64,000 nt of DNA from NCBI RefSeq assembly GCF_900106015.1, contig NZ_LT629797.1, forward strand, positions 1-64,000, written 5' to 3'. The position numbers and the translations under genes are program-made. This DNA is from Pseudomonas sihuiensis. GTDB lineage: Bacteria; Pseudomonadota; Gammaproteobacteria; Pseudomonadales; Pseudomonadaceae. The notes under the pieces are model-generated. The model did not search any database. It saw nothing but the letters and a program-made list of their open reading frames with translations, and was not told the DNA's origin. Of the stretch, positions 5,978 to 21,637 are shown piece by piece (position 1 is the first letter of the stretch; the number at the start of each line of letters is the position of its first letter).

Positions 5978-6016
5978 TGGATGGGGCTCCTTGGGGCCGC
6001 TTGCGGCGGCTTCCAA

Positions 6017-6102: not shown

Positions 6103-6360
6103 ATGGCTGACGACATCAAGCAGTTACGCGCCCAGGTAGAGGCACAGAGCTGTGTGATCCAACACTTGCTGGTGGCTTGCATGCGGCACGGGATAATCGA
6201 TTCGCATGTACTGGCCGAGGAGTGCCGAACCCGCAGAGACAGCCCTACGTCCATTGCGGCAGAGCCCGGCGCAGGCCGGTTGCTGCTCATAGAGCTGGAG
6301 GCCTGGGCGACACTGATCACTGATCAGCACCTGGCAGATGCAGGGCCTCAAGGCGATTGA
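6103..6360 (+). CDS. Small hypothetical phage protein on the opposite strand
   Basis: 85 residues starting MADDIKQLRAQVEAQ. The N-terminal half is amphipathic and helical. A GGGAG lies 12 bases before the ATG. It runs against the surrounding leftward early genes, and its last 44 bases overlap the end of the gene at 6317-6814. The sequence is protein-like and no better frame exists in this gap, but there is no family match I can name. Confidence 0.5.
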   Translation: MADDIKQLRAQVEAQSCVIQHLLVACMRHGIIDSHVLAEECRTRRDSPTSIAAEPGAGRLLLIELEAWATLITDQHLADAGPQGD

Positions 6361-6814
6361 GTGCCTCGGCTTCGTCAAGGTTTTTGGCCTCGGCTTCATC
6401 CTGCAAACGCTGGTAAACCGATTGCACGGAAAGCCCCATGGCATGCGCCAGACGAGCGCAGCGCCCAGCACGGGAGTAATCAACACCAATAAACGGGTCT
6501 AGAGCGGCATCCAGACCCTTCAGCTGACGAAGCCTGACGGCAGCCTCGACGATACTGAGGGGGCGTACATCTCGGCTGGTGAGGCGATCCCCCACCAGCC
6601 GCCCTGCGCCGATCAGCATCAGGCGGTCAACCAGCTTGGCGGTACCGGGCGTGGCCAGGGTGCGATCAACGATGACCAAAGCCTGCTCTTGGGCTTCTGC
6701 CAGGTGCGCGGCAATGGCTGGGCCGTCGCCAGGTGCACAGGCGATCAGGGCGTTCAGCGCGGCGCGCCAGGCGTCCATCGGGTGGGGGATCAGGTCGATG
6801 TGTTCTACGTGCAT
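6317..6814 (-). CDS. Early phage regulatory protein of unknown family
   Basis: 165 residues from the ATG at 6814, which follows GAGGGTTACCGCC. Helical, with an HTH-like segment near the end (CARLAHAMGLSVQSVYQRLQ at about 121-140), which suggests DNA binding. It starts just after the stop of the BcepMu gp16-like gene, so both are in the same leftward transcript. Function unknown beyond probable regulation. Confidence 0.75.
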   Translation of the reverse strand: MHVEHIDLIPHPMDAWRAALNALIACAPGDGPAIAAHLAEAQEQALVIVDRTLATPGTAKLVDRLMLIGAGRLVGDRLTSRDVRPLSIVEAAVRLRQLKGLDAALDPFIGVDYSRAGRCARLAHAMGLSVQSVYQRLQDEAEAKNLDEAEALNRLEALHLPGADQ

Positions 6815-6825
6815 GGCGGTAACCC

Positions 6826-7074
6826 TCAAGCGGCTTGGTGGGTTTGGGTTGGGTTGGCTTTCAGGCCCAGGGCCACGGCGGCGTGGTGAGCGTCGCCGCG
6901 CAGGCCTTTGAGCCGGCCGCGCAGCAGGTCGACCATGGTCATGCGGTCGATACCCAGCTCACGCGCCCAGGCGGATTTGTTGATGCCGTGCGTCACGAAC
7001 CAGGCGTTGGCGCTTTCCGGCGTTTGTGGGTACGGCAGCGGGGCCGCGCTGGTGGTGGTTGGGTTGCCTTTCAT
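6826..7074 (-). CDS. BcepMu gp16-family small HTH protein
   Basis: 82 residues. The core WFVTHGINKSAWARELGI, a helix-turn-helix, then LRGRLKGLRGDAHHAAVALGLK has the pattern of the phage-associated BcepMu gp16 family, small DNA-binding proteins of transposable phages placed close to the repressor. It may act like Mu Ner or Cox by lowering early or repressor transcription. The N-terminal 20 residues are a Pro/Thr-rich extension. First of a tight leftward gene run. Confidence 0.8.
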   Translation of the reverse strand: MKGNPTTTSAAPLPYPQTPESANAWFVTHGINKSAWARELGIDRMTMVDLLRGRLKGLRGDAHHAAVALGLKANPTQTHQAA

Positions 7075-7123
7075 GCTTGGCCTCGTGTGGTAAATTGCGG
7101 TTTTCGAGCAAGGAGCGGCGCTG

Positions 7124-7486
7124 ATGGATCAGTTGGAACCATTGCTGGGCGCGATCAGGGAGCGGCATCAGGAGCAGGCGGCTCACCTGCATGGCCTTGA
7201 GTGCCTGGTGGGGTTTCTGCTGGCGCAGTTGAAGGCGAGCCCGGGTTGGTCGGCAGAACGCTTGCTGGATGCCCTGGAGGCAGAACAACGAGCACAGCTG
7301 GAGCGTGATCCGGAAGCCCCGCAGCTATGGCCGTTCGAACAGCTAGCGATGCAGTTGAGTTGCCTAGCTGGCCGCCCAGTGTGGCCAAGCGACCTGCCCA
7401 AAGCGCTTCAACGGGGCTTCCCCAGGCTTGACTCAGCACCGCCTGGGTTGCGGCTCGCAGGTGCTGATATTCAGCACGACGAATGA
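7124..7486 (+). CDS. Small hypothetical phage protein, overlapping the Mor-like gene
   Basis: 120 residues. The ATG has a strong ribosome-binding site (AGGAG, 8 bases before). The first ~50 codons are rich in G/C third positions, as in a real gene, and encode a helical Leu/Gln/Glu-rich protein (HLHGLECLVGFLLAQLKA). The distal half overlaps the tail of the leftward Mor-like frame by about 330 bases, so one or the other tail may not be coding. No recognised family. Confidence 0.55.
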   Translation: MDQLEPLLGAIRERHQEQAAHLHGLECLVGFLLAQLKASPGWSAERLLDALEAEQRAQLERDPEAPQLWPFEQLAMQLSCLAGRPVWPSDLPKALQRGFPRLDSAPPGLRLAGADIQHDE

Positions 7487-7817
7487 GTTGGTAGATGGCG
7501 TTTGGAGTAGTGCCGAAGCGCTCGGCCAGTTCGGCCTGGTTGGTGCCATTGAAGGCTTGCAGGATTTGCGCGTCCCGTGCGGCAAGTTGCGCTGCAAAGC
7601 CCTGCGGGATATGGCACGCGGTGCGCTCGGCTACGTATGCGTCGAGCTGCTCGGCAAAAGCCTGGCCAACACCGGCTGGGTCAACGGTGACGCGGGTAGT
7701 TGGGAACAGCAGGCGCATGGCATCGAGCACGGCCTTGAACGCACCAACGACAAAGGTCAAGGGCAGATCGCTGGAGAATTCGATATGTAGGTTGTAGGTG
7801 TTCGGCTTGGGGTTCAT
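7155..7817 (-). CDS. Mor/C-family HTH transcription activator, first early gene
   Basis: 220 residues. Residues ~85-115 match the Mor-family signature (FNGTNQAELAERFGTTPNAIYQLIRR), the HTH of the middle/late activators of Mu. The ATG follows AAGGAAGCCGCC. It is the first gene after the leftward early promoter at 7868-7896, about 45 bases downstream. Mor proteins are usually about 130 residues. Here the last ~100 residues are Ala/Pro/Gly-rich, with no family likeness, and lie opposite a convincing rightward gene, so the tail may be an accidental extension. In this family the protein would activate phage middle or late promoters. Confidence 0.75.
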   Translation of the reverse strand: MNPKPNTYNLHIEFSSDLPLTFVVGAFKAVLDAMRLLFPTTRVTVDPAGVGQAFAEQLDAYVAERTACHIPQGFAAQLAARDAQILQAFNGTNQAELAERFGTTPNAIYQLIRRAEYQHLRAATQAVLSQAWGSPVEALWAGRLATLGGQLGNSTASLAVRTAIAAGLPDHAPAVLVVLPPGHPASVLPTNPGSPSTAPAETPPGTQGHAGEPPAPDAAP

Positions 7818-7867
7818 GGCGGCTTCCTTCGTGGCTAAGCGAGGTGTTGCGCTGTGGTGTGTGGTTA

Positions 7868-7896
7868 ATAATGGGGAACGAATGTTCCCCTGTCAA
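7868..7896 (-). promoter_or_regulatory. Early promoter with repressor operator in its spacer
   Basis: On the minus strand a perfect -35 TTGACA (7891-7896) is followed after exactly 17 bases by CATTAT (7868-7873). The spacer is the inverted repeat GGGGAAC-GAAT-GTTCCCC (7873-7890). It lies between the repressor (rightward) and the first early gene (leftward), so a dimer bound here would block early transcription and could also act on its own gene. Confidence 0.75.
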
Positions 7897-7915
7897 TGCG
7901 CAAAGAGGAATATTC

Positions 7916-8359
7916 GTGCCTCTTTTTGGAGAGCGCTTGCGCGCAGAAAGGGAACGCCTAGGGCTTGGCCAGCAAGAGATGGCCGAGAAATGCGGTGTGA
8001 CCATGCGTTCGCAGCGGAACTATGAGAAAGGTGAGCGGCAGCCTGATGCCGCCTATCTGGCTGCATTTACTGCGCTTGGTGGTGACGTTCTCTTTTTACT
8101 TACCGGGCATGGTGATCAAAAAATGACTGATCAGTCATATCGGTCGACGGCGACCGATATGACCGAAAACACAAATCCAGTCACGCATTCCGTGGCGGCT
8201 GAGCCGCTGGGTGAATACCGGTTGAACCGGCGCGAGAAGGCGCTACTGGAAAACTACCGAGGCTCGGACGAAGAAGGACGACGAGCCATGGAGAGCACAG
8301 CGAGTGCTCTGGCGCACAGGGACAGTGCGAAGAAGAAGGGACGCCAAGGCGTCGAATGA
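7916..8359 (+). CDS. c: Phage repressor, XRE/Cro-CI HTH
   Basis: 147 residues from the GTG at 7916, which has AGAGGA 5 bases upstream. Longer readings from ATG at 7844 or 7871 would run through the operator and lack a site. The N-terminal HTH (about 5-65) contains FGERLRAERERLGLGQQEMAEKCGV and ends GGDVLFLLTG, the typical boundary of this family. No LexA-type Ser/Lys peptidase is visible in the short basic C-terminus, so induction is unlikely to be by RecA-stimulated self-cleavage. An antirepressor at 17732-18460 is a possible alternative. Diverges from the early operon over the operator at 7873-7890. Confidence 0.88.
   Translation: MPLFGERLRAERERLGLGQQEMAEKCGVTMRSQRNYEKGERQPDAAYLAAFTALGGDVLFLLTGHGDQKMTDQSYRSTATDMTENTNPVTHSVAAEPLGEYRLNRREKALLENYRGSDEEGRRAMESTASALAHRDSAKKKGRQGVE
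8123..8163. repeat. Two overlapping perfect palindromes inside the repressor gene
   Basis: ATGACTGATCAGTCAT (8123-8138) is a perfect 16-base palindrome. It overlaps a second inverted repeat with 13-base perfect arms, GTCATATCGGTCG (8134-8146) and CGACCGATATGAC (8151-8163), around a 4-base loop. Both lie in the linker between the HTH domain and the C-terminal tail. Protein constraint alone does not explain them. Confidence 0.8.
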
Positions 8360-8395
8360 TGACTAGGCCTGCATGGCCATCAAGGAGGGTTACCA

Positions 8396-8698
8396 ATGGC
8401 GCTGATCGAATGCCATGAGTGCAAGCGGGAAATCTCTGACCAGGCCAAGGTTTGCCCTGGTTGCGGTGCCAAGGTGCGGGGTGAGCCAAAGAGCTACGCG
8501 TGGCTCTGGACGATCCTGATTCTGTTGGCTGGGTTTGTTTGGTACAGCACGGTTACCACCAAGGAGCAGCGCCAGGATCAAATGGCCTATGAGCTATGTC
8601 TGCAGGATATGAAGAAGTTTCCAGGCAACCCAATTGTCGCCGGGACCTGCACCATGCTGCGTGACAAGTACAAAGCCAAATACCACCGAGAGCCATGA
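8396..8698 (+). CDS. Small zinc-ribbon membrane protein
   Basis: 100 residues. CHEC (6-9) and CPGC (20-23) form a four-Cys zinc ribbon, followed by one membrane helix at about 33-52 (WLWTILILLAGFVWYSTV) and a soluble tail with two more Cys. An AGGAGG lies 9 bases before the ATG. It sits in the accessory slot between the immunity region and the lysis cassette. Zinc-ribbon plus one TM is a common architecture of phage and host accessory proteins. A role in superinfection exclusion or lysogenic conversion is possible but not shown. Confidence 0.75.
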   Translation: MALIECHECKREISDQAKVCPGCGAKVRGEPKSYAWLWTILILLAGFVWYSTVTTKEQRQDQMAYELCLQDMKKFPGNPIVAGTCTMLRDKYKAKYHREP

Positions 8699-8704
8699 GG
8701 GCAC

Positions 8705-8980
8705 ATGAGCGACTACGGCGAAGGTGACCTGGACCTGCTGTTCACCATGTTCGAAGGGGTGATGCAGGCCCAGGAGTACCTGACTATGAGCCTTTTACAT
8801 ACCGGCGCGCTTGATCGCGCAGGCCTGCAAGCCAGGCTTGAAGCCGCGCTAGCCAGGGACGATTTGCGGGTTGGCACGCAAATCCCCCTTTCGCGGATGC
8901 TCGAGGTTGTGAAGGGGCAGCAGCCGACCCCGCCGCCCCGCTGGACGCCTCGGCTGATTCCTGGAAAGAAGCCTGACTGA
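8705..8980 (+). CDS. Small hypothetical phage protein
   Basis: 91 residues, acidic N-terminus, helical middle and a Pro-rich end. It starts 6 bases after the zinc-ribbon gene, so the two are probably cotranscribed. Its last ~200 bases overlap the end of the convergent gene at 8784-9296. No family recognised. Confidence 0.6.
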   Translation: MSDYGEGDLDLLFTMFEGVMQAQEYLTMSLLHTGALDRAGLQARLEAALARDDLRVGTQIPLSRMLEVVKGQQPTPPPRWTPRLIPGKKPD

Positions 8981-9296
8981 GCCGCTGCTGGGCTGCGCGC
9001 TCGACTTCGGCCCGTCGCGCGGGCGCTTCACGGTTGGCGCGCTCGAAGTACTCAATCATGCGCTGCTCATTTTGCGCGGGCGAATGAATACTCAGGGCTT
9101 GGCGAAAGGCACCTGGGTTCGCTTCGATTGATGCGAGCAGTTGCTCTATGTCCAGATCACGCTTAGCAGCCTGTCCCGGCTCGCGCAGTACTGCTTCTGC
9201 GCGGGCCTTGAAGTCGGCCAGGCTTTCACCGTTCTCAATGCTGTAGTCGATGATCTGGCGAAGTATCGCCAGGCGGTCGGCGTCGGTCGTCTGCAT
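8784..9296 (-). CDS. Hypothetical phage protein, convergent with 8705-8980
   Basis: 170 residues from the ATG at 9296, with AGAGGG 8 bases upstream. Residues 1-105 are charged and helical (ADRLAILRQIIDYSIENGES). The rest is Ala/Ser/Gln/Arg-rich and lies opposite the rightward gene, so the true end of one of the two is uncertain. No recognised family. Confidence 0.55.
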   Translation of the reverse strand: MQTTDADRLAILRQIIDYSIENGESLADFKARAEAVLREPGQAAKRDLDIEQLLASIEANPGAFRQALSIHSPAQNEQRMIEYFERANREAPARRAEVERAAQQRLSQASFQESAEASSGAAGSAAAPSQPRASAKGGFACQPANRPWLARLQAWLAGLRDQARRYVKGS

Positions 9297-9354
9297 ATCG
9301 GTTGCCCTCTGCTGGTTTCGGCTGCCGATCCTGCGCCCTTGCCTGGGCAATGTA

Positions 9355-9375
9355 TTTTTGCCGCGTCCAAATTAC
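9355..9375 (+). promoter_or_regulatory. Phage repeated motif, copy 1 (candidate late promoter)
   Basis: A T5 run followed by GCCGCGTCCAAATTAC. It matches copies at 18841 and 24186 at all but two positions and precedes the lysis cassette. A short inverted repeat (TTGC/GCAA) stands just before it but is weaker than the hairpins before the other copies. Confidence 0.6.
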
Positions 9376-9475
9376 TCCGCGCGCGCGCGAGGCGAAGCTG
9401 TGATCTCTGCCGTTTAAGACCGGCACTTATTAGCACAGCAACGGCCAGGGATTGGCCAACCTCGGAGCGCAACCC

Positions 9476-9778
9476 ATGGCCACCTGCCAGAACAAGCCCA
9501 AGCGCCGCTTCCTGCCGCGCATGACCGTATTCGCTGTTATCTCCATCCTGCTGCTGCTGGCCATCTGGTACGTGCGGCCCGAGCAGCTGCAGGTGGTGCT
9601 GTACAAGGCCAGCCTGATCACCATCGGCGCCGTGCTGGGTTACTACATCGACCGAGCGGTGTTCCTGGATGAAGCACGCCCGCATCAGTGCATCGGTGGC
9701 ATCCATATCGTTGGGGCCTGGCTGCGCCGTGCACTGATCGTGCTTGCGTGTGTGCTCGGCATGACGCTGGGGCTGTAG
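9476..9778 (+). CDS. Putative holin
   Basis: 100 residues from the ATG at 9476 (GGAG 8 bases upstream); an ATG 8 codons earlier lacks a site. Basic N-terminus (KPKRR), then about three membrane helices at 17-34, 42-59 and 80-99. It resembles small phage holins and lies 2 bases before the lytic transglycosylase gene, the usual place for a holin. It would make the membrane lesions that release or activate the endolysin. Confidence 0.75.
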   Translation: MATCQNKPKRRFLPRMTVFAVISILLLLAIWYVRPEQLQVVLYKASLITIGAVLGYYIDRAVFLDEARPHQCIGGIHIVGAWLRRALIVLACVLGMTLGL

Positions 9779-9780
9779 TC

Positions 9781-10641
9781 GTGAACCGCCTCAAGCGTTG
9801 GCTGGCCGAGGCCGGCAACGATCTCGCCATTATCTGGATGATCGAGCCGCGCCTGTTCCTGTGGCCGCTGATCCTGCTGATGTTCGCAGTGGGCCTGTTC
9901 ATCGTGCCCAGCGCCGACGCTGCGAGCATCCCGACCGCTGCCGAGCAGCACCGCCGCACCCTGGTGCGCGCTGCGCATGCCGAATGGGGCCTGGGTGCGC
10001 CTGTGGCGACCTTTGCCGCCCAGGTTCACCAGGAGAGCGCCTGGCGCGTGAATGCCCGGTCGCCTGTGGGCGCCGAGGGCCTGGCGCAGTTCATGCCGGC
10101 TACGGCGGACTGGATGGCCGAGATCTACCCGCGCAGCCTGGGCCCGGCGCAGCCGTACAACCCAGGCTGGGCACTGCGGGCGATGGTGGCGTTCGACCGC
10201 TGGCTCTACGAACGAAACCAGGCCGCTAGCGAGTGTGACCGCTGGGCCTTTGTGATGGCCGGCTACAACGGCGGCAATGGCTGGGTGAATCGTGACCGCA
10301 GGCTGGCATCGGCACAGGGCGCCGATCCGCTGGCCTGGTTCGATTCCGTCGAGCGGCACAACGCTGGCCGCTCGGCCGCCAACTTCCGCGAGAACCGCCA
10401 TTACCCGCGCGCCATCCTGCTGCGCTGGGAGCCGATGTATGCGGCTGCCGGCTGGGGGCCTGGCGTGTGCGCCGACAGGTATAGCCGCCATGAAGATCCC
10501 GACGCTGTTTCTGCTCGCCACGTTGACCAGCAGTTCGCCTGCCGCCTGCTCCCGGAACTGGCTGGCTGCCGCCGAGCTGTTCGCATCGCCGCCGCCCCGC
10601 GAGCGCCACGCACCGCGACTACCGCGCAAGTTCAGGCGTAA
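9781..10641 (+). CDS. Endolysin, SLT-type lytic transglycosylase with N-terminal membrane segment
   Basis: 286 residues from the GTG at 9781. A hydrophobic segment at about 27-48 is followed by a transglycosylase SLT domain: QVHQESAWRVNARS with the catalytic Glu at 85, GLAQFMP at 100-106 and GYNGGNG near 160. It would cleave the glycan strand of murein to 1,6-anhydro products. The N-terminal segment suggests export as a signal-anchor endolysin. It lies between the holin and the Rz/Rz1 pair, in a complete Gram-negative lysis cassette. The C-terminal ~70 residues have no clear motif. Confidence 0.9.
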   Translation: MNRLKRWLAEAGNDLAIIWMIEPRLFLWPLILLMFAVGLFIVPSADAASIPTAAEQHRRTLVRAAHAEWGLGAPVATFAAQVHQESAWRVNARSPVGAEGLAQFMPATADWMAEIYPRSLGPAQPYNPGWALRAMVAFDRWLYERNQAASECDRWAFVMAGYNGGNGWVNRDRRLASAQGADPLAWFDSVERHNAGRSAANFRENRHYPRAILLRWEPMYAAAGWGPGVCADRYSRHEDPDAVSARHVDQQFACRLLPELAGCRRAVRIAAAPRAPRTATTAQVQA

Positions 10642-10650
10642 GGGGCGGAG

Positions 10651-11073
10651 ATGATCAACCGAATCGTGATTGCACTCAGCGCCCTGGTCGGGCTGGGGAT
10701 CGCCCTAGCCGTGACCTGGTTGCTGGCTGCAAGCACTGCCTATGACCTGGGCTACGCCGAGGGCAAGGCAGCTGCAGCCGAGGCGTGCCAGCAGGCCCAG
10801 CTCGACGCCCTGGAGGGCGTGATCGACAGCACCAAGGGGCTGATCGCCGACGCCAACGCAGCCAGCCAGGAGCTGGGCAAGACCATCAGCGCACGCCGCC
10901 AGGCGGACGCACAGACCACCAAGGAGATCCGCCATGCGCTCGCTACTACTGCGACTCAGCGTGCTGGCTGTGTGTTCGATGCTGGCGTCATGCAGCAGCT
11001 CGACGACGCGCGTCGTCGAGCCGCCGAGGCCGCTGCCGGCGGAGTACGCACGTCAATGCCCGCCGCCCGTTGA
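10651..11073 (+). CDS. Rz-like inner-membrane spanin
   Basis: 140 residues. N-terminal membrane helix (about 5-28), then an Ala/Gln/Lys-rich periplasmic coiled coil. This is the i-spanin layout. It spans the periplasm and pairs with the Rz1 lipoprotein to fuse the inner and outer membranes. The Rz1 gene begins inside it in another frame, as in lambda-type spanin pairs. Confidence 0.85.
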   Translation: MINRIVIALSALVGLGIALAVTWLLAASTAYDLGYAEGKAAAAEACQQAQLDALEGVIDSTKGLIADANAASQELGKTISARRQADAQTTKEIRHALATTATQRAGCVFDAGVMQQLDDARRRAAEAAAGGVRTSMPAAR

Positions 11074-11191
11074 ACCGCACGATAACAGCGCCGATGCCGC
11101 CGTGGTGGCGCTCAAGGAGCTTTATGACCAGTACGGCGAGTGCGCTGGCCGGCTGGTGGACCTGGTGAATTACCTGCAGGAGAAACGCTAG
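10934..11191 (+). CDS. Rz1-like outer-membrane spanin lipoprotein
   Basis: 85 residues. A signal sequence ends in the lipobox LASC, with Cys20 as the lipid anchor. A Pro-rich stretch follows (VVEPPRPLPAEY), typical of Rz1. The first 140 bases overlap the Rz gene in a different frame. The stop directly abuts the next start at 11192. Confidence 0.85.
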   Translation: MRSLLLRLSVLAVCSMLASCSSSTTRVVEPPRPLPAEYARQCPPPVEPHDNSADAAVVALKELYDQYGECAGRLVDLVNYLQEKR

Positions 11192-11512
11192 ATGGATATG
11201 GACTTCGCCCTGCGGCTTGGCCAGTTCCTTTTCACCCTGATTGTCGGGGTGTTCTCGATTACCGCAGCGCGCCGCGCCAGTTCTCGGGCCGAGGCCGAAG
11301 AGTTGGCCGGGCGCCTGCGCGACCACGGCAACCGCATCCTGGTGCTGGAGCAGCGCATGGATCATCTACCGGATGGCAAGCAGTTGGGCGACCTGGCCGG
11401 CGATATGAAGGCGATCAAAGCCGAGCTTGCGGGGGTGGCCCGAGAACTGGCCCCTTTGGCCAGATCGGTCGACCGAATCAATGACTACCTGTTGAACGCG
11501 AGGCCGCAATGA
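11192..11512 (+). CDS. DUF2730-family phage protein
   Basis: 106 residues. One membrane helix at about 10-27, then a coiled coil. The layout and position, between the spanins and the small terminase genes, match the DUF2730 proteins of Mu-like phages (gp25-like). Role unknown; it may assist lysis or DNA packaging. Overlaps the next gene by 4 bases. Confidence 0.8.
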   Translation: MDMDFALRLGQFLFTLIVGVFSITAARRASSRAEAEELAGRLRDHGNRILVLEQRMDHLPDGKQLGDLAGDMKAIKAELAGVARELAPLARSVDRINDYLLNARPQ

Positions 11513-11808
11513 GCAAATACGCCAACTACCTGAGCGAAGACCGCCGCCTGGTGATCCTGCACATCCTGGCGGAGATGCCCACCTACCGTGCCAACAGTTC
11601 GGTGCTGCATACCGTGCTCCAGGAGTGGGGGCACGAGCCCAGCCGCGACCAGGTGAAAACCGAGCTGCGCTGGCTGGAAGAGCAGCAGCTGGTGGCGCTG
11701 GATGACGTTGGCGACGGCGCGGTACTCCTGGCCAAGCTGACCGAGCGTGGTGCCGACGTCGCCGCCGGCCGGGCCCGAGTGGACGGCGTGAAGCGGCCGG
11801 GAGCCTAA
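11509..11808 (+). CDS. Mu gp26-like phage protein
   Basis: 99 residues. A winged-helix-like protein (RRLVILHILAEMPTYRANSSVLHTVL, split here between helices, then a KTELRWLEEQQLVAL segment). It belongs to the conserved small protein found just before the DUF3486 gene in Mu-like phages. Function unknown; the position suggests a role near DNA packaging. Confidence 0.75.
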   Translation: MSKYANYLSEDRRLVILHILAEMPTYRANSSVLHTVLQEWGHEPSRDQVKTELRWLEEQQLVALDDVGDGAVLLAKLTERGADVAAGRARVDGVKRPGA

Positions 11809-11810
11809 CC

Positions 11811-12359
11811 ATGGGCCGCAAGTCGAGCATCGACCGGCTGGAGCCGGCAGTCCGCACGCACATCGAGAAGCGCCTGCGCGAGCGGCGCCTGACCCTGGAC
11901 GAGCTGATCGAGGATCTGCACGAGCACTTCCCCAGCGCGGACAAGCCCAGCCGTTCGGCGATTGGCCGCTACAAGGTCAGCTTCGACGAGATGGCCAAGC
12001 GGCTGCGCGAGCAGCAGGCCATGGCCAGCCTGCTGGTCGAGGAGCTGGGCGAGAACCCCAACGACAAGGCCGGCGCACTGATGGTGCAGTCGATCCAGAC
12101 ACTGACCACGCACGCCGCCCTGGGCGCTCAGGTCGATGACGAGACCACCATCGACGACGTGCGCAAGCTGGCCCGTGCCGCCAAGGACGTGCTGCAGGCC
12201 AGCAAGGCCAGCCGCGAGGAGCGCAAGGCGATCGAGCGTGAAGCCCGCGAAGCACTGCTGGCCGAGCAGGAGCAGCGTCTGGAAGAGATGCGCGGCAGCG
12301 ACGGCATGAGCGAAGAGTTCGAAGACCGCATCCGCCGCGTCCTGATGGGTAAAGCCTGA
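11811..12359 (+). CDS. Small terminase subunit, DUF3486 (Mu gp27-like)
   Basis: 182 residues. An N-terminal HTH (RRLTLDELIEDLHEHFPS, then PSRSAIGRYKVSF) and a long charged helical C-terminus match the DUF3486 family, the small terminase of Mu-like phages. It would recognise the packaging start and recruit the large subunit, whose start overlaps this stop by one base. Confidence 0.88.
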   Translation: MGRKSSIDRLEPAVRTHIEKRLRERRLTLDELIEDLHEHFPSADKPSRSAIGRYKVSFDEMAKRLREQQAMASLLVEELGENPNDKAGALMVQSIQTLTTHAALGAQVDDETTIDDVRKLARAAKDVLQASKASREERKAIEREAREALLAEQEQRLEEMRGSDGMSEEFEDRIRRVLMGKA

Positions 12360-14017
12360 TGAGCGAGCAAGAAGGCAAAGCACTCAAGGCCCTGACCAAG
12401 CCCCGCAAGATCGATCTCGCCGCCGAGCTGGAGCTGCATGGCGTTGTCGTGCCCCAGGACATGGCCGATGCAGTACCGGAGGCCGAGGGCGTGTTCCTGC
12501 CTTACCAGCAGCGCTGGTTCGACGACACCAGCCAGATCATGATCGCCGAGAAGTCGCGCCGTACCGGTCTGACCTGGGCCGAGGCCGGGCGTAACGTGAT
12601 CAACGCCGCCAAGCCCCGCCGCCGTGGCGGCTGCAATACCTTCTACGTGGGCAGCAAGCAGGAGATGGCGCTGGAGTACATCGCCGCCTGCGCGCTGTTC
12701 GCCCGTGCCTTTAACGAGATGGCCCAGGCCGACGTCTACGAGCAGACCTTCTGGGATGATGGGCGCCGCGAGGAGATCCTGGCGTACATGATCCGCTTCC
12801 CGAAGAGCGGCTTCAAAATCCAGGCGCTCAGCTCGCGCCCGAGCAACCTGCGCGGCCTGCAGGGCGATGTGGTGATCGACGAGGCGGCGTTCCATGAATC
12901 CCTTGAGGAGCTGCTCAAGGCCGCCCTGGCGCTGACCATGTGGGGCAACAAGGTCCGGCTGATCAGCACCCACAACGGTGTGGACAACGCCTTCAACAGC
13001 TACATCCAGGACGCCCGCGAAGGCCGCAAGGATTACAGCATCCACCGCATCACCCTGGACGATGCCCTGGCCCAGGGGCTGTACAAGCGCATCTGCTACG
13101 TCACCAACCAGGAATGGTCGCCGGAAGCCGAGAAGCAGTGGCGCGACAAGCTGTACAAGAACGCCCCCAACATCGAGTCGGCCGACGAGGAGTACGGCTG
13201 CGTACCGAAGAAATCGGGCGGCACCTATCTCAGCCGAGTGCTCATCGAGCAGGCGATGGTCGATGACCACTCCATTCGCATCTACCGCTACGAGGCGCCC
13301 GAGGGCTTCGAGCAGTGGACGCCTGAGATGCGCGAGGCTGAGATCCGCGCATGGTGCGAGGAGAACCTGGCGCCCGAGCTGGCGCGCCTAAACCCGCGCA
13401 ACCGTCACACCTTCGGTGAAGACTTTGCGCGGCGTGGCGACCTCACGGTGTTCACGCCACTGCAGATCGATCCGCTGCTGCGCAAGCGCGTGCCATTCGA
13501 AGTCGAACTGCGCAACCTCACGTACGAGGCGCAGCGCCAGGTGATGTTCTTCATCTGCGATCGCCTGCCGCGTCTTTCTGGCCTGGCGTTCGATGCCACC
13601 GGCAACGGTGGCTACCTGGCTGAACAGGCCGCGCTGCGCTATGGCGCCGGCATTGTCGACCAGGTGCAGCTCAGCCTGGCCTGGTATGCGCTGTGGATGC
13701 CCAAGCTGAAGGGCGAGCTGGAGGCCTTCAACCTGCAGATCGCCCGCCACCAGACCCGCCTCGACGACCTGCTTTCGATCAAGGTGGACAAGGGCGTGCC
13801 CGTGATCGACAAGGGCCGCACCAAAGATCTGCAGGCACAGGACAGCAAGGCCAAGCGCCACGGCGACAGCGCCGTATCGCTGGCCATGGCGGTGCGTGCC
13901 AGCTTCATGGAAGGCGGTGCCATCGAGTTCACCGCACTGCCACGCCACAGTCGTGGCTTCGACAACGTCGACGACAACGACTCCGACCTCACTCTCCCGG
14001 AACCTTCAGCATGGTGA
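12359..14017 (+). CDS. Terminase large subunit (Mu gp28-like)
   Basis: 552 residues. The ATPase domain has a Walker-A-like segment EKSRRTGLTW (64-73) and Walker B DVVIDEA (170-176), with the Phe/His that follow in gp28 proteins. The C-terminal nuclease region contains acidic residues in RRGDLTVFTP and FDATGNGGYL. It drives head-full DNA packaging and cuts beyond the prophage ends. The stop overlaps the start of the portal gene by 7 bases. Confidence 0.93.
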   Translation: MSEQEGKALKALTKPRKIDLAAELELHGVVVPQDMADAVPEAEGVFLPYQQRWFDDTSQIMIAEKSRRTGLTWAEAGRNVINAAKPRRRGGCNTFYVGSKQEMALEYIAACALFARAFNEMAQADVYEQTFWDDGRREEILAYMIRFPKSGFKIQALSSRPSNLRGLQGDVVIDEAAFHESLEELLKAALALTMWGNKVRLISTHNGVDNAFNSYIQDAREGRKDYSIHRITLDDALAQGLYKRICYVTNQEWSPEAEKQWRDKLYKNAPNIESADEEYGCVPKKSGGTYLSRVLIEQAMVDDHSIRIYRYEAPEGFEQWTPEMREAEIRAWCEENLAPELARLNPRNRHTFGEDFARRGDLTVFTPLQIDPLLRKRVPFEVELRNLTYEAQRQVMFFICDRLPRLSGLAFDATGNGGYLAEQAALRYGAGIVDQVQLSLAWYALWMPKLKGELEAFNLQIARHQTRLDDLLSIKVDKGVPVIDKGRTKDLQAQDSKAKRHGDSAVSLAMAVRASFMEGGAIEFTALPRHSRGFDNVDDNDSDLTLPEPSAW

Positions 14018-17287: not shown

Positions 17288-17482
17288 AAACCGCAAACCG
17301 CCGCAAAGGCCCGTAGAAGCGTTTTAAGCCCCCCAGGGGGCTGCCGTTGTACGCGTCGGGCTGCCTCGTACCGTTTCCGGGGCTGTTTGGGCGTTTATAA
17401 ACACGGCTCCGCATCTGGCCTGGAGTGAGTTTTGGGCCAAAGCCTGGGAAAACCGGGAAAATGCCGAAAAATGGTAAAACTG
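17288..17482. other. Non-coding lead-in to the antirepressor module
   Basis: No convincing gene. It contains a G/C hairpin, AGCCCCC-CA-GGGGGCT (17327-17342), without a T-run, and an A-rich stretch before the promoter at 17483. Confidence 0.6.
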
Positions 17483-17511
17483 TTGCCAAGGTGGTAACGC
17501 TGGGCTAGGGT
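17483..17511 (+). promoter_or_regulatory. Sigma-70-type promoter of the antirepressor module
   Basis: TTGCCA (17483-17488), a 17-base spacer and TAGGGT (17506-17511). Transcription would begin at about 17518, the first base of the direct repeat ACTTAAACCAAACGG. Confidence 0.55.
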
Positions 17512-17517
17512 AAAAGT

Positions 17518-17532
17518 ACTTAAACCAAACGG
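17518..17532 (+). repeat. Direct repeat, copy 1, at the 5' end of the leader
   Basis: ACTTAAACCAAACGG, identical over 15 bases to 17709-17723, which overlaps the antirepressor ribosome-binding site. The last 8 bases (CCAAACGG) are complementary to CCGTTTGG at 17649-17656 in the C4-like RNA. Confidence 0.9.
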
Positions 17533-17560
17533 CAGTCACTGCGCTGACCTCGCAGCCTGC

Positions 17561-17591
17561 CGCCAGCCCTCGGGCTGGCGTTTGCATTTTT
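17561..17591 (+). terminator. Intrinsic terminator upstream of the C4-like RNA
   Basis: A 9-base-arm G/C hairpin (17561-17580) runs into TTTGCATTTTT. Transcripts from 17518 that stop here would be about 74 nt. Confidence 0.8.
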
Positions 17592-17593
17592 AC

Positions 17594-17702
17594 GGTCGGG
17601 ATGAGAGCGCGGATACAAGACCCTTCGGGGGAAGAAGCGCCAGGGTTCCCGTTTGGACCCTAGTTGAATCCCGACCACCTGATGGGCTACTAATCCGTCA
17701 GG
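17594..17702 (+). ncRNA. C4-like antisense RNA controlling the antirepressor
   Basis: A closing stem GGTCGGGAT (17594-17602)/ATCCCGACC (17668-17676) encloses two hairpins. One has GCGC arms around a UUCG-capped CCC/GGG. The other has AGGGT (17642-17646)/ACCCT (17657-17661) with CCGTTT in its loop. A third hairpin, CCTGATGG/CCGTCAGG (17678-17702, one G-T pair), follows. CCGTTTGG at 17649-17656 is the exact complement of CCAAACGG just before the antirepressor Shine-Dalgarno, and the same target occurs at 17525-17532. This matches the logic of the C4 RNAs of phages P1/P7, which are processed from the leader of the antirepressor transcript and block its translation. The nearly tRNA-like closed fold fits the RNase P processing known for C4. 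Confidence 0.65.
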
Positions 17703-17708
17703 CAAGAC

Positions 17709-17723
17709 ACTTAAACCAAACGG
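17709..17723 (+). repeat. Direct repeat, copy 2, at the antirepressor ribosome-binding site
   Basis: ACTTAAACCAAACGG followed at once by AGGTCATC and the ATG at 17732. The repeat contributes the first bases of the Shine-Dalgarno (CGGAGG), so pairing with the C4-like RNA would mask it. Confidence 0.9.
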
Positions 17724-17731
17724 AGGTCATC

Positions 17732-18460
17732 ATGACCGCGCTCACCTTCCGCGATACCCGCCTCGATGTTATCGACCGTAACGGCCAGCGCTGGCTCACT
17801 GCCGAGCAGATCGGCCTGGCCCTTGGCTACGCGCCAGACAACGCTCGTAAGGGCGTAAACAAGCTCTATAACGCTCATAGCGACGAGTTCACCGAGCAAG
17901 ACACAGGTGTCGCCGTTTTGGCGACACCTAGTGGCCGGCAGGAATCACGCATTTTCTCTTCCAGCGGCTGCATCCTCCTTGGCTTCTTCGCCAATACCAC
18001 CCGCGCCAAGGAGTTCCGCGTGTGGGCCAAGCAGGTGCTGGCCTGCCGTCCGGAACCCGCCGCACCGGCCCGTGGCCCGTCCGGTCGGGTGCTGATCACC
18101 CGTGCCATGGAACGCCAGGTGCTGGAGCTGTTCGTCGCCGGCTGGCGGCAGCGCGCCATTGCCGATGAGGTGGGCCTATCCGCCGCCGCCATCAACCTGC
18201 TGCTGCATGCCAAGTACCAGTTCAGCCCGGCTGCTGGCGAGCCGCAGTGCAGCCCCGAGCTGCTCGCCGCTGTGGCGGTTAAGCACCTGGAGAACGAGCA
18301 GGCGCGGCTGATCGAGCAGCAACAGCGGTTGGCCCAGCGCTTCTGCAACTCGGCGCACAACCAGCCGCTGGCCGACCAGCTCGACCGCATTGGCCGGCAC
18401 CTGCAACAGGCTGCCGCCGTGGCCTTGCTGCCGCTGGGCGGCAAGGATGGTGAGCAATGA
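17732..18460 (+). CDS. ant: Phage antirepressor with BRO-N domain
   Basis: 242 residues from the ATG at 17732 (GGAGG 6 bases before). Residues 1-105 are a BRO-N domain: FRDTRLDVIDRNGQRWLTAE, LALGYAPDNARKGVNKLY, then FSSSGCILLGFFANTTRAKEFRVWAKQVL. Residues ~115-160 contain a second HTH-like segment (RQRAIADEVGLSAAAINLLL). The end is a Gln-rich coiled coil. Antirepressors of this type bind and inactivate phage repressors. The KilAC domain often found at the end is absent. The gene stands behind a C4-like RNA, as in P1-type immunity. Its target may be the repressor at 7916. Overlaps the next gene by 4 bases. Confidence 0.85.
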   Translation: MTALTFRDTRLDVIDRNGQRWLTAEQIGLALGYAPDNARKGVNKLYNAHSDEFTEQDTGVAVLATPSGRQESRIFSSSGCILLGFFANTTRAKEFRVWAKQVLACRPEPAAPARGPSGRVLITRAMERQVLELFVAGWRQRAIADEVGLSAAAINLLLHAKYQFSPAAGEPQCSPELLAAVAVKHLENEQARLIEQQQRLAQRFCNSAHNQPLADQLDRIGRHLQQAAAVALLPLGGKDGEQ

Positions 18461-18774
18461 GCCTGCACGAACTGCGCCCCGACCAGGTGGCCGCCATCAA
18501 CGCCTTTGCCGCGCGGCGCCTGGCCGAACGCATGGGCGCCCTGAGCGCGCTGAAACAACTGCTGGCCGTGCCACTGCCGGTGGATGCCGAAGGTGACGAA
18601 ACCCCGGCCATGCTCGACCATGTGTCGCGCAGCGACCTGTGCCAACTGGTGGACGTGCTGGCCGGCGACCTGGAGCAGCAGGCCTACAAGGTGCAGGAGC
18701 TGGCCGACCAGGCGCTGCACAACACCCTGGCCCTGCTCGACTACCCAGCCGACCACGCCCTGCGCACGCGCTGA
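18457..18774 (+). CDS. Small helical protein coupled to the antirepressor
   Basis: 105 residues, mostly helical (VAAINAFAARRLAERMG, then DLCQLVDVLAGDLEQQAYK), with no membrane segment. It starts within the antirepressor stop and is followed by a strong terminator, so it belongs to the cargo module rather than to the head operon. It may be a partner or modulator of the antirepressor. No family recognised. Confidence 0.72.
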   Translation: MSLHELRPDQVAAINAFAARRLAERMGALSALKQLLAVPLPVDAEGDETPAMLDHVSRSDLCQLVDVLAGDLEQQAYKVQELADQALHNTLALLDYPADHALRTR

Positions 18775-18782
18775 CCCTCCCT

Positions 18783-18810
18783 AGCCCGGCCTCGCGCCGG
18801 GCTTTATTTC
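18783..18810 (+). terminator. Intrinsic terminator closing the antirepressor module
   Basis: AGCCCGGC (18783-18790), loop CTCGC, GCCGGGCT (18796-18803), then TTATTTC. Together with the terminator at 17561 it insulates the module from the head genes. Confidence 0.85.
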
Positions 18811-18840
18811 CTGCCGTAATGCCCTCGCCAGCCAGCGAGA

Positions 18841-18861
18841 TTTTTGCCCCGTCAAAATTAC
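18841..18861 (+). promoter_or_regulatory. Phage repeated motif, copy 2 (candidate late promoter)
   Basis: T5 followed by GCCCCGTCAAAATTAC. A hairpin CTCGC/GCGAG ends just before the T-run, so the unit is terminator-like and then the conserved block. It lies 30 bases before the start of the protease/scaffold gene. Confidence 0.65.
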
Positions 18862-18891
18862 TTGCCCGGCCTGCCGCGCCAAGCTGCCGGC

Positions 18892-19998
18892 ATGAAGACA
18901 AAACGCCTCCCTCTCGCCGTTGCACTCGCCGCCTGCAGTTTCGTACTGGGGGCGCCGGCTGCCGACAACACCATCTGGGTTCAGGTGACCCCGGCTGGTC
19001 ACTTCCTGCCGGCTGATGGCCGCGAGATCAAGGTGCCGTCCTGGCACATCAACCAGGCGGTGGCCACCAAGGTCATCGAGCGCTTCCACGCTCGCAAGAA
19101 CAAGCGCGTAGTCGACTACGAGCACCAGACCCTGCTCAAGGAAGAGAACGGCCAGCCCGCACCTGCTGCAGGTTGGTACCAGGCCCTGGAGTGGCGTGAA
19201 GGCCAAGGCCTGTTCGCCCAGGTGCAACTGACCGCCCGCGCCGCGCAGTACATCGCCGAGGGCGAGTACCAGTATTTCTCCCCCGTGTTCCTTTACCACC
19301 CGACCACCGGCGACGTCCTGGACGTGCAGATGGGCGCGCTCACCAATGCCCCGGCAATCGACGGCATGCAGGAACTCAGCCTGCGCGCCGCCGCGTCGTT
19401 CGGCTGTTTCGATGACTCCCCAGAGGAAAACCCCGTGAACCCACTGCTGCTGGCGGTCTGTGCCGCGCTCGGCCTGCAGGCCGATAAAACCACCGAAGAG
19501 CAGGCCATCGCCGCGCTCACTGCATTCAACAACGACCTGCGCAAGCTGCTGGGTGAAGGCGAAGCCTCTGATGGCAAGGCCGTCCTGGCAGCCTGCACCG
19601 GCCTCAAGGCCAAGGCCGCCACCAGCGTCGACCCGGCGCAGTTCGTGCCGCTGTCGGTTGTCGAAGGCCTCAAGGCCGAGATGGCCGCCCTGACCGCCCG
19701 CCTGGGCGAACGCGACGAGAAGGATCTCGACAGCCAGATCACCGCCGCCCTGGAAGACGGTCGCCTGCACAAGACCATGGAGGATTGGGCGCGCGACCTC
19801 GGCAAGAGCAACCGCGCAGCGCTGACTGCCTACCTGGACAAGGCGCAGCCCATCGCGGCCATCACCGGTAGCCAGACCGGAGGCAAACCGCCGGTGGCGG
19901 ACGAGAAGACTGGCCTGACCCAGGATGAGCTGGCTGTTTGCTCGGCCATGGGCCTGACCCCTGAACAGTTCAAGGCCGCCAAGGCCGAGGAGCAATAA
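18892..19998 (+). CDS. I: Head maturation protease / scaffold (Mu I/Z-like)
   Basis: 368 residues from the ATG at 18892. Residues ~20-165 match the Mu I protease family, including the VVDYEHQTLL block, GWYQALEWREGQGLFAQVQ, EYQYFSPVF and GALTNAPAIDGM. The rest is an acidic, helical scaffold region. The protease trims the scaffold and itself during head maturation. A well-placed internal GTG at 19435 could make the scaffold alone, as Z is made within I in Mu. The N-terminus (residues 1-25) looks hydrophobic, but a signal peptide would be out of place here. Confidence 0.9.
   Translation: MKTKRLPLAVALAACSFVLGAPAADNTIWVQVTPAGHFLPADGREIKVPSWHINQAVATKVIERFHARKNKRVVDYEHQTLLKEENGQPAPAAGWYQALEWREGQGLFAQVQLTARAAQYIAEGEYQYFSPVFLYHPTTGDVLDVQMGALTNAPAIDGMQELSLRAAASFGCFDDSPEENPVNPLLLAVCAALGLQADKTTEEQAIAALTAFNNDLRKLLGEGEASDGKAVLAACTGLKAKAATSVDPAQFVPLSVVEGLKAEMAALTARLGERDEKDLDSQITAALEDGRLHKTMEDWARDLGKSNRAALTAYLDKAQPIAAITGSQTGGKPPVADEKTGLTQDELAVCSAMGLTPEQFKAAKAEEQ
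19435..19998 (+). CDS. Z: Nested scaffold protein Z (internal in-frame start)
   Basis: A GTG at 19435 lies in the frame of the protease gene, with AGAGGA 7 bases upstream. It begins a 187-residue product made only of the acidic helical part (LQADKTTEEQAIAAL and on). Nested protease and scaffold genes are known for Mu (I and Z) and lambda (C and Nu3). This start is inferred from sequence alone. Confidence 0.55.
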   Translation: MNPLLLAVCAALGLQADKTTEEQAIAALTAFNNDLRKLLGEGEASDGKAVLAACTGLKAKAATSVDPAQFVPLSVVEGLKAEMAALTARLGERDEKDLDSQITAALEDGRLHKTMEDWARDLGKSNRAALTAYLDKAQPIAAITGSQTGGKPPVADEKTGLTQDELAVCSAMGLTPEQFKAAKAEEQ

Positions 19999-20001
19999 GC
20001 C

Positions 20002-20406
20002 ATGCCGCTGACCAAAGACCGCAACACCCTGCGCCGTGATGGCGTGCAGTTCAACGACCCGGTGGCTGCCAGCACTCGCATCTTTGCCGGCTCCCTGGTT
20101 TGCCTGAATGCTGCCGGTAATGCCGTGCCAGGCAGTCTCTCCGCGACCTTGAAGGTGCGCGGTGTGGCTCAGGAACATGTGGACAACCGCGATGGTGCTG
20201 CCGGTGCGTTGCGCATCCATATCCGCCGTGGCGTGTTCCAGTTCGCCAACAGCGCCTCGACCGACGAGATCACCCGCGCCGATATCGGCAGCGAGTGCTT
20301 CATCGTCGACGACCAGACCGTCGCCAAGACTTCCGCCACTGACACCCGCTCTGTCGCCGGCACTATTCTCGATGTGGATGCCGGTGGCGTCTGGGTCGAG
20401 ATCTAA
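20002..20406 (+). CDS. Putative head decoration/stabilisation protein
   Basis: 134 residues, beta-rich and soluble (RIFAGSLVCLNAAGNAVPGS, then ALRIHIRRGVFQFANS). It lies between the scaffold and the major capsid gene, the usual place for a decoration protein in Mu/B3-like phages. It resembles the DUF2190-type capsid-associated proteins. Identity rests on position and fold impression. Confidence 0.72.
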   Translation: MPLTKDRNTLRRDGVQFNDPVAASTRIFAGSLVCLNAAGNAVPGSLSATLKVRGVAQEHVDNRDGAAGALRIHIRRGVFQFANSASTDEITRADIGSECFIVDDQTVAKTSATDTRSVAGTILDVDAGGVWVEI

Positions 20407-20420
20407 GGAGCAAGACTCAG

Positions 20421-21314
20421 ATGATCATCAACAAGCAAAACCTCTCCATCCTGCATACCGGCTATATGGCGTCGTTCCAGGGCGCATTTCAGGGCGCAGT
20501 GATCGACTATGACCAGATCGTGATGGAAGTGCAGTCCGGCACCGCCATCGAAACCTACGGCTGGCTGGGCGCTACCACCCGTTTCCGTGAGTGGCTGGGC
20601 GACCGCGTGATCCAGAACCTGGCGCTGCATGACTACAGCATCAAGAACAAGACGTTCGAGAACACCGTGGGCGTGCCCCGCGAGGCGATCGAGGACGATC
20701 AGTACGGCACCTACAACACCCTGATGGCGCAACTGGGCCAGGACGCCAAGGAGCACCCGGCCGAGCTGGTTTATGCCCATCTGAAAAACGGTTTCACCGG
20801 CAAGTGCTACGACGGCCAGTCCTTCTTCGATACCGACCACCCGGTGATCGGCGCCAATGGCCAGGAAACGTCGGTGAGCAACTTCCAGGGTGGTAGCGGT
20901 ACGGCGTGGTTCTTGCTGGACGTCACTCGCATGATGCGGCCCATCATTCTGCAGAAGCGCAAGAACTATCAGTTCGTTTCCAAGACCGGCGAGACCGACT
21001 CCAACGTGTTCGACCGCAAGGAGTTCGTATGGGGCGTGGATGCACGCCTGAACGTTGGTTATGGCCTGTGGCAGCTGGCCTACGCCTCCAAGGAAGCGTT
21101 GGATGCCGACAGCTTCAACGCGGCCTATGCCGCCATGCAGGAACTCAAGGGCGACAACGCGCGTCCGCTGGGTATCCGTCCGAAGCTGCTGGTAGTGCCG
21201 CCAAGCATGCGTGCTACCGCCCTGGAAGTGGTCAAGGCCGAGCGCAACGCGGCCGGCGCCACCAACATCAACCGCGACGTGGTCGACGTGCTCGTCACCC
21301 CGTGGCTGGCCTGA
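20421..21314 (+). CDS. T: Major capsid protein T (Mu gpT-like)
   Basis: 297 residues. Matches the Mu-like gpT family (PF10124): starts MIINKQNLSILHTGYMASFQ, includes FENTVGVPREAIEDDQYG and DGQSFFDTDHPV, and ends near VVDVLVTPWLA. It forms the HK97-fold shell. A good ribosome-binding site (AAGGAG) precedes it. Confidence 0.95.
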   Translation: MIINKQNLSILHTGYMASFQGAFQGAVIDYDQIVMEVQSGTAIETYGWLGATTRFREWLGDRVIQNLALHDYSIKNKTFENTVGVPREAIEDDQYGTYNTLMAQLGQDAKEHPAELVYAHLKNGFTGKCYDGQSFFDTDHPVIGANGQETSVSNFQGGSGTAWFLLDVTRMMRPIILQKRKNYQFVSKTGETDSNVFDRKEFVWGVDARLNVGYGLWQLAYASKEALDADSFNAAYAAMQELKGDNARPLGIRPKLLVVPPSMRATALEVVKAERNAAGATNINRDVVDVLVTPWLA

Positions 21315-21325
21315 TGGGGTGATGC

Positions 21326-21637
21326 ATGGCTAATAAATCGACCGCCAAGGCGCCTGCAAAGGCGCCCACCAAGAGCGCAGATAAGGCAGCGCCTGCAGGT
21401 GGCAGTGCCACTGATGCTGTTGATGGCCTGGACGACGACGGCGATATCGAGGGGCTGTGGGTGGTGGCGATTCCCGAGCAGGGCTTCCGCCGCTGTGGCT
21501 TTCGCTTCACCCGTGAAGGCTTCGGCATCGCCCTGAGCGCGCTGACGGCCGAGCAGATCGAGCAGCTGGAGAACGAGCCCAACCTCAAGGTTGAGCGCGG
21601 CATCTTCTCCGGCCGTGTCGGCGAGCGCGTGGAGTAA
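21326..21637 (+). CDS. HI1506-like Mu prophage protein
   Basis: 103 residues. A Lys/Ala/Pro-rich N-terminus is followed by a compact domain (GLWVVAIPEQGFRRCGFRFT, then LTAEQIEQLENEPNLKV) that matches the FluMu HI1506 domain, found after the capsid gene in Mu-like phages. Possible head-tail connector accessory; function not established. Confidence 0.8.
   Translation: MANKSTAKAPAKAPTKSADKAAPAGGSATDAVDGLDDDGDIEGLWVVAIPEQGFRRCGFRFTREGFGIALSALTAEQIEQLENEPNLKVERGIFSGRVGERVE

Follow-up and report, generated by a model that had tools for sequence, protein, structure and literature searches.

The window analysed here is the stretch from position 1 to 64,000 of Pseudomonas sihuiensis contig NZ_LT629797.1, 64,000 nucleotides (nt) in length. 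It contains a Mu-like prophage, and a module at 17483-18803 of this prophage is, with a probability of about 0.8, a C4-type antisense switch. In this module a small structured RNA, best described from its sequence as a divergent relative of sRNA-Xcc1 (Rfam family RF02221), lies between two copies of a target sequence, the second of which overlaps the ribosome-binding site (RBS) of ant, a gene for a BRO-N protein. The RNA family, the two targets and the co-variation of the RNA loop with these targets are shown by sequence comparison. All the features of the module are on the plus strand.

The probable antisense RNA and its two targets

The putative antisense RNA is located at 17594-17684, as indicated by a covariance match, the fold and a core motif. 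The predicted fold has three helices, the closing stem P1 (17594-17602 with 17668-17676), P2 (about 17607-17640) and P3 (17642-17661). Of the antisense octamer CCGTTTGG (b', 17649-17656), six bases fall in the predicted P3 loop, the other two in the 3' arm of P3. The octamer is complementary to both copies of ACTTAAACCAAACGG, the first (a1-b1) at 17518-17532, where the transcript would start, and the second (a2-b2) at 17709-17723, 8 bases before the ATG of ant. On the plus strand of the 64 kb, CCAAACGG is confined to the two target copies and CCGTTTGG to the loop. The 3' linker AGTTGA (17662-17667) is a possible a' segment; by eye its pairing here is imperfect, and at the family level a' pairing is significant (see below). 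A further predicted hairpin (17678-17702), also kept in the second prophage described below, separates the RNA from copy 2. A first-pass annotation of this DNA had placed the repeat at the transcript start and at the RBS of ant, had noted the octamer complementary to both repeats, and had described a compact RNA at 17594-17702; all three are found, the last as the RNA together with the further hairpin.

Covariance searches give the family. At the Rfam gathering thresholds there is nothing in the 64-kb window, C4 (RF01695) included. At E≤10 on 17400-18000, C4 has no match, c4-2 (RF02944, Rfam 15) is not among the matches in the window, and the sole credible one of four matches is sRNA-Xcc1, with 48.5 bits (cut-off 53) and an E-value of 1.4e-7, or 3.0e-7 per genome. 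The conserved P2 core of RF02221 is found at a single place in the 64 kb, with 3 mismatches to the pattern (0 of 100 shuffles). Membership of the C4 family is thus ruled out by the covariance searches: the RF01695 test that had been proposed for it was negative, and RF02221 matches instead. The C4-like logic of the earlier proposal is supported: in a Mu-like prophage, an antisense RNA lies next to a BRO-N gene and has a target copy on either side.

From the window locus alone, the case for antisense pairing is suggestive, and the comparative tests decide. The RNA fold has a z-score of -2.38, with 2 of 200 shuffles equally good, the predicted duplexes of the P3 loop with the target copies have energies of -12.2 and -13.0 kcal/mol, and none of 2000 dinucleotide shuffles of the locus gave a 15-nt repeat. 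The repeats could also be read as DNA operators bound by a protein, with the loop match as a coincidence: they are direct repeats at an RBS and at a promoter-like site (TTGCCA at 17483-17488 and, after a spacer of 17, TAGGGT at 17506-17511, a weak element agreeing with TATAAT at 3 of 6 positions), and 8-nt complementarity to both flanks arose in 16 of 2000 dinucleotide shuffles of this locus. This explanation is scarcely credible, as changes in the loop are accompanied by matching changes in both copies, in the second prophage and across the family.

Two prophages with different, matched loops

A second Mu-like prophage in the same chromosome is 98.4% identical to the window over 1-12365 and 86.0% identical over 17336-21396, and its module is at 1948148-1949011. 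The two RNAs differ at 1 of 47 bases before the loop and at 2 of 28 after it. The loop segment itself (17645-17656) has 4 mismatches and 2 gaps in 12 positions. The second prophage has the loop CCGTAAGG and carries CCTTACGG twice, both target copies being changed to fit. The ant genes differ at 72 of 726 bases, and both promoter-like hexamers are kept. For the loop alone, predicted duplexes have energies of -12.8 to -15.2 kcal/mol when loop and target are matched, compared to -7.5 to -9.4 kcal/mol when they are unmatched.

Predicted antisense pairing across the family

RF02221 matches were found in 14 of 57 genomes of relatives, 26 of 369 of the class, 58 of 398 of the phylum and 62 of 298 of the genus (the samples overlap), and in 0 of 14 control genomes in every sample. 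The 160 loci fetched gave 150 distinct RNAs, 147 of them with enough flanking sequence; 21 weak phylum matches, 26 same-genus matches and 4 C4 matches were not fetched. Over the 147 loci, the longest exact complement of the P3/linker region is 8.46 nt in the upstream leader and 7.06 nt downstream, compared to 6.13 and 5.63 nt for swapped RNAs. The duplex energies are -30.6 (swapped, -24.3) upstream and -24.1 (swapped, -20.4) downstream, and the locus's own RNA is among the best 5% by energy in 73 of the loci upstream and 45 downstream.

Two anchored tests give a sharper comparison. In the first, b1 was defined from the leader arms alone and the loop from the RNA alone to avoid circularity; the 75 loci with leader arms gave 52 distinct loops. 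The mean run of complementarity is 4.65 nt, against 2.50 shuffled (maximum 2.87 in 1000 shuffles), and runs of at least 5 nt occur in 35 loops, against a shuffled mean of 2.0 and maximum of 7 (300 shuffles). In the second, covering the 30 nt before the start codon, 84 distinct loops have a mean run of 5.14 nt (shuffled, 3.40), with at least 5 nt in 53 of them (on average 9.7 and at most 18 when shuffled). For a control window within the open reading frame (ORF) the mean run is 3.42 compared to 3.23, with at least 5 nt in 11 of 84 loops compared to 6.4 shuffled (maximum 16). The 3' linker shows the corresponding a' pairing, with at least 7 nt upstream in 77 of 108 distinct linkers (8.0 shuffled) and at least 6 nt downstream in 53 (9.8 shuffled). 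Only distinct loops were counted, and the shuffles leave some relatedness in these comparisons.

The complementarity recurs in a second data set. A set of viral contigs gave at least 121 matches by motif only, 113 with flanks and 93 distinct, none sharing an RNA core with the first set. Among the matches listed, runs of at least 5 nt are present in 19 of 27 loops in the leader-anchored test (1.1 shuffled) and in 41 of 60 in the start-codon-anchored test (8.2 shuffled). The position of the downstream match is also consistent. An ATG lies 10-75 nt downstream of 95 distinct RNAs. For 57 of them the 40 nt before it contain a match of at least 6 nt, and in 35 of these 57 the 3' end of the match falls at -11 to -7 from the ATG. 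In the nearest viral relative found, with 52% identity in BRO-N, an RF02221 RNA (49.1 bits) lies directly upstream of ant; by eye, its a and b segments differ from those of the window yet match its own targets.

The anchored tests thus support the wider reading for a majority of loci, not for all. Chance repeats are ruled out by the loop-target co-variation in the second prophage, the family and the viral set. The RNA or its fold had been expected above background in related prophages, and the second prophage, the viral relatives and the family loci bear this out; the same layout in other phages fits the earlier description of the module as self-contained.

The window RNA could instead act in trans on host genes, the role published for sRNA-Xcc1; the title of Chen 2011, known as a citation, names a trans-acting RNA under HrpG/HrpX. 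This is improbable for the window RNA, since two data sets show co-variation of the loop with targets linked in cis.

The leader and its terminator

Between copy 1 and the RNA, an intrinsic terminator-like hairpin (17561-17580) is followed by an interrupted T tract, the element extending over 17561-17592 in the fold and the terminator scan. It corresponds to the terminator of the first-pass annotation. In folds of the growing leader, a hairpin CGGCAG...CTGCCG (17529-17562, -16.6 kcal/mol) bridges copy 1 and the base of the terminator and may act as an antiterminator.

Many leaders of the family have a clearer arrangement, with three arms (commonly GCGG-CCGC-GCGG) before a T run. It is present in 75 of 147 RF02221 leaders, compared to 1-4 in five shuffled sets, and a stricter form in 73 compared to 2.1. 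It is also present in 10 of 31 C4 loci (P1 and 30 of the 34 RF01695 matches), P1 included, with 0-1 in shuffles. For 35 of 52 distinct loops, the match falls in the 8 nt that directly precede arm 1, where pairing could leave arm 2 free for the terminator. In 71 loci, blocking b1 together with arm 1 raises the mean terminator probability from 0.29 to 0.81, which is partly true by construction, while blocking b1 alone gives 0.24. With the same caveat, constrained folding raises the probability by more than 0.2 in 4 of the 10 C4 loci. The window leader fails the three-arm test. Attenuation is thus a reading that fits many family leaders, and the window only weakly.

Two other modes of action bear on this leader. 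In the first, as for the CI RNA of satellite P4, pairing with copy 1 would mainly cause premature termination of transcription rather than a block of translation. The three-arm leaders and the constrained folds argue for it, as does the P4 precedent itself, with its seqA and seqC sites (PMC4825925). Since the terminator of the window is already favoured, blocking b1 alone gives no rise, and copy 2 lies on the RBS, termination as the main effect is less likely than not here. In the second, the short leader (17518-17592) would be the main trans-acting RNA, titrating or opening the antisense region and turning ant on, with the inner RNA acting mostly in cis. The layout is like that of isrK-orf45-anrP in Salmonella Gifsy-1, where the short IsrK activates translation of the read-through transcript (PMC4825925), and a terminator is present in the window. 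Conservation of the stem-closed RNA as a discrete unit and the observation of an RF02221 RNA as an 88-nt species (PMC2996969) make this unlikely as the main mode, and it may complement rather than exclude the antisense switch.

A model for the module

We infer that the module is transcribed here and that the RNA is processed, that translation is blocked, that the leader has a function and that Ant is active. In the antisense switch, one transcript would start near 17518 and terminate in part at about 17592, the read-through being the precursor from which the stem-closed RNA (17594 to about 17684) would be released. The P3 loop CCGTTTGG would pair with CCAAACGG at the RBS of ant and block its translation in the lysogen. 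The same loop would pair with copy 1 in the leader, the terminated leader serving as a decoy and/or the pairing favouring termination, which would give feedback on the operon. A drop in the supply of antisense RNA, or an ant on an incoming phage with another loop, would allow Ant to be made and a repressor to be inactivated. As the first-pass annotation suggested, the prophage might in this way have a route to induction that does not depend on repressor cleavage.

Several observations weigh against this model or its extension to the family. The window RNA is 4.5 bits short of the RF02221 cut-off. The promoter of the first-pass annotation holds as far as its two hexamers go, but a consensus scan gave no sigma-70 promoter at 17483-17511. 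The terminator of the window folds well either way, with a probability of 0.87, or 0.995 with copy 1 blocked, and pairing of loop and target in cis is not predicted in the full-length transcript. The P3/linker duplex of the window is no better downstream than those of swapped RNAs (-20.6 compared to -22.2, rank 0.68; upstream rank 0.08), while its 8-nt match is rarer among them (0.02 downstream, 0.13 upstream). In the family, a good part of the RF02221 loci lack a convincing downstream match. Genomes G686 and G799, with 9 and 5 RF02221 matches, often have a good upstream match, and several of their loci are without a convincing downstream one (loci concerned: L061, L063, L115, L117-L122, L124-L127).

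The separation of the two prophages is also incomplete in the predictions. With 30-nt P3 segments, the window RNA gives -13.8 and -17.5 kcal/mol on the copies of the second prophage and -12.9 and -15.2 kcal/mol on its own. The RNA of the second prophage gives -17.1 and -25.6 kcal/mol on its own copies, stronger than the window RNA there. The two prophages resemble the P1/P7 pair, but the predictions do not amount to full insulation of the two loop variants, the window RNA being predicted to bind the copies of the other prophage slightly better than its own.

Prophage context and the ant gene

The gene before the module encodes a Mu G-type protein (PF05069) and the gene after it a Mu-like I protease (PF10123), as assigned by Pfam. 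The prophage also has a transposase (phrog_310), a DNA transposition protein (phrog_296), a terminase, a major head protein and Mu F/G/I-type morphogenesis genes, in agreement with the earlier placement of the module between G and I of a transposable phage.

The ant gene (17732-18460, ATG at 17732) encodes a protein of 242 residues that matches Pfam Bro-N (1.9e-7) and the PHROG anti-repressor Ant (1.8e-23). Eight of its nine PHROG matches, including the six best, are named anti-repressor and one has no name. The product is thus a BRO-N antirepressor-type protein by sequence, which would be the antirepressor of this phage. Among 298 same-genus genomes, only the two copies of the P. sihuiensis genome itself were found at E≤1e-8, and no relatives of the module were found in phages at the DNA level. 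Residues 128-159 (window 18113-18208) are 45% identical to a Nitrosomonas reading frame (L163) that is sigma-factor-like by eye, perhaps a helix-turn-helix; L163 was rejected as a relative, its match being restricted to these residues and the locus lacking RF02221.

A TTG-start ORF (17582-18460) spans the RNA; coding by the RNA was rejected, as copy 2 and the RBS precede the in-frame ATG at 17732. Downstream, a 105-residue protein (18457-18774), with no family in Pfam or PHROG searches, overlaps ant by ATGA and is kept in the second prophage. A terminator-like hairpin (18783-18803, terminator scan) ends the module.

Genes downstream of RF02221 RNAs

Pfam was searched with 101 proteins, the Ant of the window and 100 of 145 downstream ORFs, thinned to fewer near-copies. 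The matches are Bro-N (19), SymE (10), pRha (5), P22_AR_N, KilA-N and HTH_38 (2 each) and nine families once; at least half of the proteins match nothing. The viral contigs gave 87 ORFs, 85 after two holding X were left out. Among the matches listed, these have Bro-N (21), pRha (10), P22_AR_N, AntA and ORF6C (2 each), KilA-N and ORF6N (1 each) and seven further domains once each. In both sets, with that limit for the viral one, antirepressor-type domains are the commonest named domains.

Nine named phage records were selected on the similarity of their RNAs; duplicates of Aaphi23, S1249 and Smp131, as well as Mcat15, Pmp2, MT838277 and one unlisted record, were left out. All nine have RF02221 above the cut-off (10 matches), and none has an RNA feature annotated in the stretches concerned. 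The gene annotated next after the RNA encodes an anti-repressor in five (Aaphi23, Bordetella vB_BaM-IFTN1, Rac-SA53, S1249 and Pmp3), a KilA-N protein in Acinetobacter 4316 and a hypothetical protein in Mcat17. In Smp131 the RNA (1299-1386 of L324) is inside the annotated 5' part of the anti-repressor coding sequence (1115-1687), the annotated start of which is upstream of the RNA and may be too early. The stretch of PPwrbA_EH2201 (L329) is without annotation and has two RF02221 RNAs within 0.7 kb, at 753-842 and 1292-1377; in Escherichia coli, the part over its RNA and gene start is annotated as 'phage antirepressor Ant' in 12 listed of 161 records.

By eye, SymE-like genes directly follow RF02221 RNAs in L020, L022, L045, L046, L103, L104, L129 and L154, most of which have loop matches ahead of the ATG, and C4 locus L188 also seems to precede such a gene. 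These loci suggest that SymE-like genes outside phages may be under antisense control. No SymE-type locus was found on plasmids; a Xanthomonas plasmid match sits between two IS5-like transposase genes and led nowhere. In L137, the RNA precedes a protein that starts like the N-terminus of a type I restriction HsdR (HSDR_N, 1 of 101).

Relation to published sRNA-Xcc1

sRNA-Xcc1 was found in Xanthomonas as an 88-nt RNA (PMC2996969). It is cited as integron-encoded, trans-acting, controlled by HrpG/HrpX and linked to virulence (Chen 2011, cited via PMC12189769 and PMC12444791). According to a 2025 study, it precedes symE in the Xanthomonas cassette that is most widespread, and a divergent mechanism is suggested there (PMC12444791). 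In another study, 212 targets were predicted for it in Xylella, together with some in plants, and one table lists both sRNA-Xcc1 and C4 (PMC12189769). In enterohaemorrhagic E. coli (EHEC), 40,293 transcriptome reads and 290 footprint reads are given for an sRNA-Xcc1 entry, with an RCV of 0.02 (PMC5331693), and a member of the family is therefore abundant and untranslated there. The locus was not found in EDL933 at the printed coordinate, the paper having used another genome version, NC_002655. No link of sRNA-Xcc1 to C4 or antirepressors was found in the part of the sRNA-Xcc1 literature covered or in the titles and abstracts of further papers.

The module very probably works like C4, and the comparisons suggest that the sRNA-Xcc1 RNAs of many loci tested form a lineage of C4-type antisense RNAs. 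On balance, we favour a broader reading of RF02221 as a second lineage of C4-type antisense switches across Pseudomonadota. It would be a portable cassette, made up of a target copy, an antiterminator/terminator leader, a three-helix RNA and a further target copy. Mobile elements would place it ahead of antirepressor genes, SymE-type genes, one restriction-type gene and numerous small genes of unknown function. The loop would define the immunity group of each element, so that prophages differing in their loops could coexist. Our confidence in this reading is lowered because the longer-segment energies fall short of full insulation of the two loop variants.

RF02221 would thereby have a likely function, with a target that can be predicted as the RBS of the following gene; papers had given it long lists of predicted trans targets, some in plants (PMC2996969, PMC12189769). 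The logic of C4 would also extend to a Mu-like phage.

Comparison with known systems

The closest parallel is C4 of P1 and P7 (RF01695). It likewise has a closing stem and two inner hairpins. Its antisense segments lie within the second loop and 3' of it, the latter with a possible counterpart in the window RNA, and the loop is complementary both to an upstream copy and to the RBS of the following gene; in P1, antirepressor genes are downstream. Matches of at least 8 nt to the flanks occur in 20 of the 31 C4 loci upstream (swapped mean 2.2) and 27 downstream (swapped 1.7), as in RF02221, and the plan is therefore common to both. In contrast, the window has no C4 covariance match and its phage is Mu-like. 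No C4 match was found in 11 RF02221 loci scanned at E≤10, and the 3' flank C[AG]CC is present for 31 of 31 C4 RNAs compared to 93 of 150 RF02221 RNAs. C4 is processed by RNase P at a GGW site, and the window RNA starts with GGT. The P. sihuiensis genome also has four RF01695 loci (2202237, 3639657, 1631155 and 2693077; L171, L185, L191 and L196), which with the two RF02221 loci makes six C4-type antisense modules in one chromosome.

With published sRNA-Xcc1, the window RNA shares the covariance match and the conserved P2 core. It differs in being below the curated cut-off and in a prophage beside its apparent target, while the published RNA is integron-encoded and, by citation, trans-acting. 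IsrK/STnc1160 of Gifsy-1 has a promoter, a terminated leader RNA, an inner processed RNA with a shared complementary sequence and the antirepressor-like anrP; its differences are translational coupling through orf45 and activation by IsrK rather than repression. The CI RNA of satellite P4 is also a processed antisense RNA that pairs with a site upstream (seqA) and one downstream (seqC) (PMC4825925), but there replication genes are controlled by transcription termination. The group 1 C4-like small RNAs of Acinetobacter baumannii have a C4-like fold and a variable a' region and are apparently processed (PMC5320573); unlike the window RNA, they have the C4 motif by Rfam, and their targets are only proposed.

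In P1 and P7, a 4-nt difference limits cross-action (PMC5320573), and heteroimmunity of the two phages has been described (PMC12197685). The two co-resident prophages of P. sihuiensis, each with a loop that matches its own targets and differs from that of the other, form a natural pair that recalls this heteroimmunity.

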